Below, piece by piece: positions 29,141 to 31,995 of a stretch of DNA of 64,000 nucleotides. The stretch's first letter is position 1. Every line of letters begins with the position of its first letter. The DNA lies in contig JAADDZ010000015.1 in NCBI GenBank assembly GCA_013153635.1, forward strand, positions 62,001 through 126,000. Direction: 5' to 3'. The stretch comes from Aquificota bacterium (GTDB lineage: Bacteria; Aquificota; Aquificia; Aquificales; Hydrogenothermaceae). Made by a program: the position numbers and the translations under genes. The notes beneath the pieces were generated by a model. That model made no database searches and had not been told where the DNA came from. It saw nothing but the letters and a program-made list of their open reading frames with translations.

Positions 29141-30025
29141 TTAATGTACATTTTCACATCTAAAGTTTTCTGTTTCTGGTTGTATCGTTATATGTTTTAT
29201 ACCTTTTGATTTTAATATCTTTGAAATGTCTAAAATTATCTGTTCTATTTCCTCAAGCTTTGTATCTGGATTTAGAATGATATGTCCAGTGAAATATATA
29301 TCTTTTGACGACAAAGCCCATACATGAATGTCATGAATATCCTTTATTGAAGGAACTTTCTTTATTTCAGTTTTCAATAGTTCTATATCAATATCTGGAG
29401 GTACTCCCTCCATAAGGATATTGTAGCTTTTCTTCAAAATAGGCAAAGTCTCTTTTAGTATATATAAACTAAAAAGCAAAGATAAAACAGGGTCTATCCA
29501 ATAGATTCCTGTATAGTACATAGCTATACCACCTAAGGCTACTGCTAAAGAAATCCCAGCATCACTAATCAGATGAAGATAAGCCGCAGTTATATTTAGG
29601 TCATGGTGGTGGTGATGATGATGGTGAAAACCTAGTATCACAGCTGAAAAACTGTTTATAAAAAAAGCTATAAACCCAAAGATTATGACATATATACTTT
29701 TGACCTCTTCAGGAGTTATAAGCCTTTCTATACTTGTTAGTATAACTAAGAAGATAGCCCCTACCAAAAATCCAGAATTGATAAACCCAGCAAGAGCCTC
29801 TGCCCTTAGGTATCCATAGGTCATTTTTTTAGTAGGTTTTTTATTAGACCATAAAACAGCTACAAAAGCGATAATCAACGAAAGAACATCTTGAAAGTTG
29901 TGTACCGCATCTGTTATCAATGCGATAGAATGACTAACTATCCCAAAAAACAGTTGAAGGATAACTATAACTACATTAAGAACAATAGCTATAAGAAGTC
30001 TTTTTGTATTAGTTAAATTTCTCAT
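29141..30025 (-). CDS. Cation diffusion facilitator family metal exporter
   Basis: A 294-residue CDF antiporter exporting Zn2+ or similar divalent metal. Six transmembrane helices are evident, with metal-site residues in DAVHNFQD (helix II) and HLISDAG (helix V). Between helices IV and V is a run of eight consecutive His (about residues 134-141), a typical CzcD/ZitB-like metal-sensing loop. The C-terminal cytoplasmic domain (VPSIKDIHDIHVWALSS) is complete. It ends at 29141 and directly follows phoD in the same direction. Confidence 0.93.
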   Translation of the reverse strand: MRNLTNTKRLLIAIVLNVVIVILQLFFGIVSHSIALITDAVHNFQDVLSLIIAFVAVLWSNKKPTKKMTYGYLRAEALAGFINSGFLVGAIFLVILTSIERLITPEEVKSIYVIIFGFIAFFINSFSAVILGFHHHHHHHHDLNITAAYLHLISDAGISLAVALGGIAMYYTGIYWIDPVLSLLFSLYILKETLPILKKSYNILMEGVPPDIDIELLKTEIKKVPSIKDIHDIHVWALSSKDIYFTGHIILNPDTKLEEIEQIILDISKILKSKGIKHITIQPETENFRCENVH

Positions 30026-31561
30026 CTAGTATTCTATAAATTTTGTATTATTAAGGTATAGTCTAAAATTTCTTTTTATTTTAATACCTTTATCTGCATT
30101 TTGTATGTCCACAGACTTAAATATTATGTCTGTATAATCTTTTGTCATCTCAACAATAGTGTACCCATTGGTGCTAGAGTTAAAGTATTTTATATGTTCA
30201 TTTTCTAGAGAGACTAGACTTTCTAATAAATCTACATCGATAGGTACGATTTCATCTAGATTTGACGAAGTTGCAGATGTTGTTATAAATTCTGGGACTA
30301 TATTTTCTTCGTCTAATTGGGCAAAACCACCAACAAAACTGTGCAAATCTCCAGTCAAGATAAAAAGATTTTTCAACTGAATCTGTTTTATTTTCTGTAA
30401 AATCAAATCTCTTTCATATTGATAACCGTCCCATGAATCAAAGCTTATGTACCGATTATCTAGTTTGAGCTTCATAAAAGCTACAGGATTTGCCCAGACA
30501 GTCCATCTTTGCTCGTTAGAACTTAACTGATAGAAAAACCAGTTAAGCTGTTCTTCTCCTAACATCGTTCTATCTGGAGACTTTTCTTCTCCACACCCTT
30601 GAGAGAGATACCTTTGGAACTTTCTCTCTCCACAAGGGTGAGAAGACCTATAACTCCTCTCATCTGTAAGTATAATCTTCATCAAATCTCCAAAGCAAAA
30701 CTCTCTATATATCTTGATTTTATCAAAAGATTCTACTTGAACATCTACAGGCATACTGTAAAACCATGCCTTACTGGCGGCTGTTCTTAAATTTTTTAGA
30801 TACTCTTCGTCTTTTATAAAGTGGTCAGGAGCATTGTAACCATAGCAATCGTTGGCATATTCATGGTCGTCCCACACGACTAAAAATGGGAATTTTCTGT
30901 GGAGTTCCTGTAGATACATATCAGATTTGTAGGTATTGTATAGATAATAGTAATCTTCCAGTGCTGATGCTATCTCATTACCAGAGGGTAAGTTCAGTTT
31001 TCTTAGTACTTTATCTGCTTCTTTATCAAAAGAGTATTCGTATATGTAATCACCTAAAAATAGGACAAAATCTAAATCTTCCTGTGCCAAGTATCTGTGA
31101 GCATAGAAGTTCCCTACAGAGTAATCTTGACAGTTCAAAACTCCAAATCTTACCTTTTCTATCTCTTGATTCTTCTCTGGTAATGTTTTAAACATTCCGA
31201 TACTCGAAAGGTGATTTTTATATCGAAACCTGTAGTAATACTTCTGCCATGGGTTTAATTTTGAAGAAGTTATGTATGATTTTACAGTAAAATTCTCCTG
31301 TAGGTTTATGTACTCTGTTTTAGAAATCAAAATGTCACGGAAAGATGAATCTTCAGATATTTCTACTGTTATCTGGTGGTTATCAAAAATTTCAGGGTTT
31401 ACTCTAGTCCACAAAACGATACCGTTTGGTTTAGGGTCTCCAGACCCAATTCCTTGAGGAAAAACAGATGAACCATTATCATTTTTATCTTCACAAGATA
31501 CTAGTATACTTGGAAATAAAGGCAATACTGCACTAAGTTTTATAAAATCTCTCCTTTTCAG
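30026..31561 (-). CDS. phoD: Tat-exported PhoD-type alkaline phosphatase, CTG start
   Basis: A 511-residue metallophosphodiesterase/alkaline phosphatase. The catalytic core has WTRVNPE, GVLNCQDYSVGNFYAH, LGDYIYEYS, WDDHEYANDCYG and LTGDLHSFVG, matching PhoD and its Fe3+/Ca2+ ligands. The first ATG/GTG/TTG in this frame (TTG, 31525) cuts off a perfect Tat signal: reading back to 31561 gives KRRDFIKLSAVLPLF with twin arginine and a lipobox-like LVSC. The only start with a ribosome binding site (AAGGGG, 7 bases) is a CTG. Exported Tat (lipo)protein; initiation at CTG is inference. Confidence 0.85.
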   Translation of the reverse strand: MKRRDFIKLSAVLPLFPSILVSCEDKNDNGSSVFPQGIGSGDPKPNGIVLWTRVNPEIFDNHQITVEISEDSSFRDILISKTEYINLQENFTVKSYITSSKLNPWQKYYYRFRYKNHLSSIGMFKTLPEKNQEIEKVRFGVLNCQDYSVGNFYAHRYLAQEDLDFVLFLGDYIYEYSFDKEADKVLRKLNLPSGNEIASALEDYYYLYNTYKSDMYLQELHRKFPFLVVWDDHEYANDCYGYNAPDHFIKDEEYLKNLRTAASKAWFYSMPVDVQVESFDKIKIYREFCFGDLMKIILTDERSYRSSHPCGERKFQRYLSQGCGEEKSPDRTMLGEEQLNWFFYQLSSNEQRWTVWANPVAFMKLKLDNRYISFDSWDGYQYERDLILQKIKQIQLKNLFILTGDLHSFVGGFAQLDEENIVPEFITTSATSSNLDEIVPIDVDLLESLVSLENEHIKYFNSSTNGYTIVEMTKDYTDIIFKSVDIQNADKGIKIKRNFRLYLNNTKFIEY

Positions 31562-31632
31562 TGTTATACCCCTTTTGTACGTTATAATTACAAGAACAAT
31601 TTATATTAATAGAAAATCTCAAGGAGATAAAG

Positions 31633-31995
31633 ATGAAAGAAACTTTTTTTCTAACCCCGGAAAAATTATACGAGGAGGTTAAAACTTATGTAGAAAAGGG
31701 AGTATTCTCTCTAGAGAATTTTGATAAAGCGGAATCTCCAAAAGATATATACATCTTCCAGCCAGCTTTTATAGAAGTTTTTGAAAAACTGTTATTTGAG
31801 CTATCAAAAGAAAATCTTAAAGAACTTACCCCAAAACTTGAAAAATTTGTAGAAGAATCCCCTTACACTGTAGAAAACAAAGAAGAGCTTATATGGGCTT
31901 TACAGCTTTGGAAAGAGAGTCCTAATGCTTCTTTTACAAAGACTTTAAACACTGCCAAAGCAAGAAGCAATAAGATTCATTCTGTTATCAGATAG
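31633..31995 (+). CDS. Conserved-looking hypothetical protein
   Basis: A 120-residue acidic, helical protein (LTPEKLYEEVKTYVEKG start) with no motif I recognise and no signal peptide or membrane segment. AAGGAG lies 7 bases before the ATG. It is divergent from phoD and its end overlaps carA by eight bases on the other strand. It carries no cysteine and no nucleotide-binding pattern. Confidence 0.65.
   Translation: MKETFFLTPEKLYEEVKTYVEKGVFSLENFDKAESPKDIYIFQPAFIEVFEKLLFELSKENLKELTPKLEKFVEESPYTVENKEELIWALQLWKESPNASFTKTLNTAKARSNKIHSVIR

Follow-up and report, generated by a model that had tools for sequence, protein, structure and literature searches.

In the window, the whole 64,000-nucleotide stretch of Aquificota contig JAADDZ010000015.1 analysed here, a PhoD-family phosphatase gene (phoD) lies on the minus strand between a cation efflux gene and a divergent open reading frame. 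The features considered below are as follows.

29141..30025, minus strand: CDF cation efflux gene (Pfam Cation_efflux, 156.4 bits), abutting the phoD stop (TAGATG)
30026..31561, minus strand: PhoD-family phosphatase gene, 511 codons from the proposed CTG plus a TAG stop, with profile and structure matches
31493..31504, minus strand: lipobox LVS/C predicted from sequence (Cys23 counted from CTG), with LTSC at the equivalent place in the G010 orthologue
31523..31525, minus strand: TTG, the first canonical start and likely annotation start, with a Shine-Dalgarno (SD) duplex of only -1.7 kcal/mol
31538..31558, minus strand: twin-arginine (RR) motif KRRDFIK, with RRDF in both same-genus orthologues in synonymous codons
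31541..31543, minus strand: ATA, a rival start behind AAAAGGAG (31558-31551), SD duplex -8.9 kcal/mol, spacing 6
31559..31561, minus strand: CTG, the proposed start codon, 7 nt after AAAAGGGG and opposite the G011 orthologue's ATG in the alignment
31569..31576, minus strand: SD site AAAAGGGG, duplex -8.2 kcal/mol, as strong as or stronger than that of 58% of 211 genes
31633..31995, plus strand: divergent open reading frame of 120 amino acids, no Pfam match

In a profile search, the phoD product scored above the Pfam gathering cut-offs for PhoD (267.3 bits, cut-off 27) and PhoD_N (71.7 bits, cut-off 30). Its score against the NCBIfam alkaline phosphatase PhoD equivalog (NF058638), 279.4, fell below the curated cut-off of 1000 bits, and we therefore name it only as PhoD-family. 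Within the genus it has full-length matches. Cysteine, aspartate and histidine motifs align with those of two solved relatives, 9uya and 2yeq, the latter of which we take to be a Bacillus subtilis-type alkaline phosphatase D. NCQDY, LGDYIYEY, WDDHE and TGDLHS are intact and alignable with 2yeq; NCQDY, GDY, WDDHE and TGDLH are presumably the metal-binding motifs. Alkaline phosphatase D of the Bacillus subtilis type is exported by the Tat pathway. By sequence, 2yeq and the phoD product share the PhoD domains and metal-site motifs, whereas the phoD product differs from 2yeq-type PhoD in the missed equivalog cut-off, in being a predicted lipoprotein and in its proposed CTG start.

The gene is present as a single copy in the window's genome (1.69 Mb, 28 contigs, 96.3% complete), and its order with the cation efflux gene recurs at two further loci (L002 and L003). 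Separately, an open reading frame 71% identical to the divergent one occurs at the equivalent position in L002; of the loci compared (L002-L046 and the G011 stretches), no other has it beside phoD. A promoter scan of 31400-31800 returned 2 sites against 1.3 expected. Predicted mRNA structure gave no sign of assisting initiation at the CTG: a 76-nt segment around it folds no better than shuffled sequence (z +1.43; 191 of 200 shuffles are equally or more stable), and a 45-nt segment gives z +0.34.

Candidate start codons of phoD

The phoD frame opens after TAA 31603-31601 and runs through ATT 31600, GTT, CTT, GTA, ATT 31588, ATA 31585, ACG 31582, TAC, AAA, AGG, GGT, ATA 31567, ACA 31564 and CTG 31561, followed by AAA AGG AGA GAT TTT ATA AAA, which encodes KRRDFIK (31558-31538). 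No ATG, GTG or TTG occurs in frame upstream of TTG 31525, and that TTG lies downstream of KRRDFIK, confirming the claim of an earlier note on this DNA that annotation limited to these three codons would lose the motif.

We scored each candidate by pairing the preceding 20 nt with an assumed 16S tail, not taken from the window's genome, and compared the scores with those of 211 genes of that genome with an aligned canonical start (186 ATG, 19 TTG and 6 GTG). The reference genes had a median duplex of -7.0 kcal/mol, and 120 of the 149 with sites of -5 or better had a spacing of 4-8. Judged by these scores and spacing statistics, CTG 31561 (-8.2 kcal/mol, aligned spacing 7) is well placed and TTG 31525 is not, while ATA 31543 is a serious competitor. 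CTG 31561 thus stands at a normal SD spacing with no better canonical start, as expected of a CTG-initiated gene, and SD strength and spacing favour it over the other in-frame codons that precede the RR motif.

These results bear out the proposal of the earlier note that CTG 31561 is the phoD start, and we regard it as the probable one on the basis of sequence. The accompanying claim, that CTG is the only codon spaced correctly from the site, holds in that its spacing of 7 fits but needs qualifying, as ACA 31564 shares the same site at spacing 4, although it is not among the usual start codons. With an odd codon further upstream as its start (ACA 31564, ATA 31567, ATA 31585, ATT 31588 or ATT 31600), the protein would have a longer n-region, and AUU, AUA and AUC starts appear to serve other genes of this lineage (below); in E. 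coli, translation of a synthetic gene is reported to begin at ACA (PMC6397469). However, ATA 31567 (-7.7 kcal/mol) is too close to its site at spacing 2, ATT 31588, ATA 31585 and ACG 31582 each score +0.8, ATT 31600 reaches only -2.7 at spacing 16, and upstream of the CTG there is no evident peptide similarity to the orthologues compared. We therefore consider an upstream start highly improbable.

The start that annotation would pick, TTG 31525, is the first canonical codon, and TTG starts are used in this genome. Yet its SD duplex is far weaker than that of CTG 31561, and starting there would drop the conserved RR block and leave ten residues before the lipobox cysteine; of the readings weighed here, we find this one extremely unlikely. 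The earlier note described the protein read from this TTG as signal-less. Such a protein would indeed lack the RR n-region and the beginning of the hydrophobic stretch, but the lipobox LVSC remains downstream of the TTG.

PhoD orthologues and the predicted export signal

PhoD matches occur in 8 of 41 family genomes, at 10 places; besides the window's phoD, eight of the nine keep the N-terminus, and the ninth (L055) is a fragment without it. The earlier note had proposed checking orthologues for a start at this position, and the check agrees with the CTG reading: at all eight N-terminus-bearing loci, the nearest canonical codon (seven ATG, and TTG in L052) stands 1-3 codons before the RR pair. 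One codon separates start and RR pair in L048, which has an additional TTG two codons before its ATG; two do so in L047, L049, L052 and L054, and three in L050, L051 and L053. In the window's phoD, one codon separates CTG from the RR pair. Loci from L024 to within L031 lie outside this comparison. CTG 31561 aligns with the ATG of the same-genus genome G011, and the preceding ACA with the ATG of a second, G010. Conservation of the CTG itself gave no support, as both G010 and G011 have ATG and the CTG was seen in one genome only.

One of the relatives, L050 (G035 C1:767286-768821), lies in a single-contig genome and has one TAA inside the match; it may be a broken copy or something else.

Among the nine N-terminus-bearing family loci, only the window's has no canonical codon ahead of the RR motif, as would also be seen if the start had been lost recently and phoD were now barely expressed or decaying. 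The state of the gene argues otherwise: the frame is open for 511 codons with its enzyme motifs intact. Unique residues number 39 against 31 in G010 (chi-square 0.9), so that the branch excess is not significant, and the differences from G010, 131/77/259 of 509 over the three codon positions, fall mostly at the third. By these sequence measures the gene does not look decayed, and we judge recent loss of the start very unlikely, although it would leave no trace.

The RR block also bears on ATA 31543, from which translation would begin by way of AAAAGGAG, inside the RR codons, and yield a Sec-type rather than a Tat lipoprotein, MKLSAVLPLFPSILVSC. Its SD duplex is slightly stronger than that of the CTG, and AUA appears to initiate a PilB-like gene in G010 (below). 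Against this, RRDF(I/L/F)KL is common to the G010 and G011 orthologues, in which KRRDF is kept as protein downstream of an ATG, while its codons differ synonymously (AGG AGA GAT versus AGA AGG GAC). The block is therefore read as protein, and a start at ATA 31543 is therefore less likely. Moreover, AAAAGGAG resembles an SD site because AGG and AGA codons encode the RR pair; most of the Tat-signal genes compared contain similar strings made by such codons, so that an internal string of this kind is expected without function. Taken together, we view initiation at ATA 31543 as rather improbable.

Read from CTG 31561, the N-terminus has the sequence features of a Tat substrate: an RR-x-F motif, a hydrophobic stretch and, in the same genome, translocase genes (one TatC and one TatA-type match). 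It also has those of a lipoprotein, with a lipobox ending in cysteine and encoded lgt and lsp genes. LVSC was called by the lipobox consensus; the G011 orthologue has no clear lipobox (IYSC). Against the TAT_signal profile (PF10518), phoD scored 15.4 bits, below the cut-off of 22.7, as did its G010 orthologue (15.2). TAT_signal matches in the window's genome number 11, of which 3 reach the cut-off. An ATG precedes the motif in all nine others with a readable start, which leaves phoD and L086; this, like the profile score below the cut-off, counts against the CTG reading. The earlier note overlooked the lipobox; rather than simply a Tat-exported enzyme, the phoD product is probably a Tat-exported lipoprotein.

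Probable near-cognate starts elsewhere in the genome and known cases in other bacteria

We surveyed starts across about 688 kb of the window's genome against about 947 kb of G011. A survey of all stop-to-stop frames flagged mostly antisense shadows, and reciprocal best hits were used instead: 336 pairs, reduced to 264 (at least 40% identity, without overlap) and then to 251 after a third-position test dropped 13. Eight rows were flagged as lacking the partner's start in the window's genome (filters of at least 4 residues and at least 30% identity). In five of these, the window's genome and G011 have an ATG in common, and a sixth, A232, has the look of a non-coding frame; the survey's 'both' list probably includes several non-coding frames too. 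Only two genes of the window's genome then lacked a canonical codon aligned with the partner's start: phoD and a glycosyltransferase of family 9.

The survey bears on whether faulty base calling or assembly turned an ATG or TTG into this CTG. A single base change would be enough, and TTG accounts for 19 of the 211 mapped starts. However, only two genes among 251 coding-like pairs lack an aligned canonical start, so that gross error is not evident, and the second of them has a plausible ATT start common to other genera. We consider a base error quite improbable.

That second gene, the glycosyltransferase (L089:14713-15702, minus strand; L167-L179), has a frame overlapping the one upstream, and carries CTA where G010 and G011 have their ATG. 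The CTA was rejected as a start, with an SD duplex of only -1.8 against -8.1 for an ATT five codons upstream. The ATT stands 8 nt after AGGAG, inside a AGGAGATAGA-NNN-ATTAAA string common to G033 and G038, in which the conserved RFSSLG/RLSSLG block follows the upstream stop with no canonical codon in between. In a PilB/GspE-like ATPase gene (L100:2492-3925, plus strand; L188 and L189), ATT follows GGAGG in the window's genome (G000) and G011, ATA takes its place in G010, and TTG stands there in several other genera. The window's genome has in-frame TTG codons upstream of this ATT, one overlapping the SD site, and the putative AUU start therefore rests mainly on G011 and G010. A separate family search, outside the survey, added infC (L211 in G000; L207-L210), in which no ATG, GTG or TTG occurs from the upstream stop to the IF3_N domain in 5 of 5 genomes; after GGAGGT stands ATC in three genomes of the genus and ATT in G015 and G033. 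From these sequences we infer near-cognate starts for infC (AUC), the PilB-like ATPase (AUU) and the glycosyltransferase (AUU). Such starts are thus present in small number, and among those found only phoD has CTG.

Published work describes similar cases. In S. aureus, AUU and AUA starts with a strong SD give about 10% of the AUG yield, in poor medium (PMC13009471), and AUU or AUA starts are described for infC and pcnB of E. coli and for infC, cvfC1 and ccpN of S. aureus (PMC1780047, PMC13009471). The ATC and ATT of infC in the window's lineage agree with these known infC starts. The E. coli and S. aureus genes resemble phoD, as read from CTG, in having a near-cognate start, in S. aureus behind a strong SD, and in a lower yield, which for phoD is predicted, but they use other codons and their expression effect has been tested; the S. 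aureus starts are also conserved between species, whereas the phoD CTG is found in one genome only.

CTG starts are rare: a figure quoted in PMC11983097 gives 20 of nearly 85,000 genes as annotated with one. Against the CTG reading, CUG initiates poorly: in E. coli it is placed about tenfold below UUG (Hecht et al., as quoted in PMC11983097), and a mycobacterial selection enriched ATT and not CTG (PMC4633059). In its favour, CUG ranks among the seven strongest start codons in E. coli (PMC12350097). The closest parallel is the FIB rep gene of E. coli F-like plasmids, whose CTG start was established by N-terminal analysis and mutation, and for which annotation often chooses a GTG lying 14 codons further on (PMC11983097). 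Like phoD, FIB rep has a CTG behind a good SD, and annotation picks an in-frame canonical codon downstream; unlike phoD, it is a plasmid replication gene with a proven start and, as described, no export signal. Because CTG starts are proven elsewhere, as in FIB rep, phoD is probably a further case of a known rarity and not a new mechanism. In a literature search on Aquificota and non-AUG start codons, Aquificota went unmentioned among the matches listed, which is not proof of absence.

A side observation from the same genome concerns ylxR (L093:17063-17592, plus strand, G000 C12; L212-L238), the neighbours of which are presumably nusA and infB. The gene is split at a run of nine A residues: the zero frame soon ends in MKKPIRTCIICKKKLKNKIY-stop, and the conserved remainder continues in another frame past TGT-AAAAAAAAA, with the part after the break scoring 21.8 bits against Pfam YlxR, below the cut-off of 26.9. 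G011 has the identical frame break. We found 37 matches in 35 of 41 genomes and compared 30; the junction is present in 27 of the 30 loci, 25 of these 27 have A9, and the zero-frame RxCxxC motif is visible in 23 of those 25. Of the A10 loci, G024 is in frame and G012 is apparently out of frame the other way, and the run is absent from three loci of genera g9 and g10. The A9 run recurs across six genera (g1, g2, g3, g6, g7 and g8), a pattern that looks like programmed slippage or frameshifting; an A9 run serves transcriptional slippage in Thermus dnaX (PMC1088944). A literature search did not find transcriptional slippage and ylxR together, and ylxR is not named in the available parts of one review and one genome-wide survey. 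The ylxR break is possibly more interesting than the CTG start.

Proposed mechanism and significance

In the mechanism we propose, AAAAGGGG would hold the 30S subunit while initiator tRNA with formyl-methionine pairs with CUG apart from a mismatch at the first position, so that initiation would be weak but correct and the protein would start M-KRRDFIKLSAVLPLFPSILVSC. By its RR motif the enzyme, folded and carrying its metal, would be directed to the Tat translocase, and Lgt and Lsp would lipidate it and cut before Cys23, giving a membrane-anchored extracytoplasmic phosphodiesterase/phosphatase. In this scheme the use of CUG, the low yield, Tat export, lipidation and enzymatic activity are each predicted. 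A further idea, which is tentative and on balance doubtful, is that the near-cognate starts are IF3-governed low-expression settings: infC (AUC), the PilB-like gene (AUU/AUA), the family 9 glycosyltransferase (AUU) and phoD (CUG) would respond together to the level of IF3, and the phoD CUG would be tuned rather than accidental.

If the CTG reading is true, annotation from ATG, GTG and TTG alone would make a Tat-exported lipoprotein look like an enzyme that is not exported. The phoD case suggests that orthologue N-termini and SD spacing can recover near-cognate starts, and together with the other candidates phoD would provide a compact test set for near-cognate initiation in an Aquificota thermophile.
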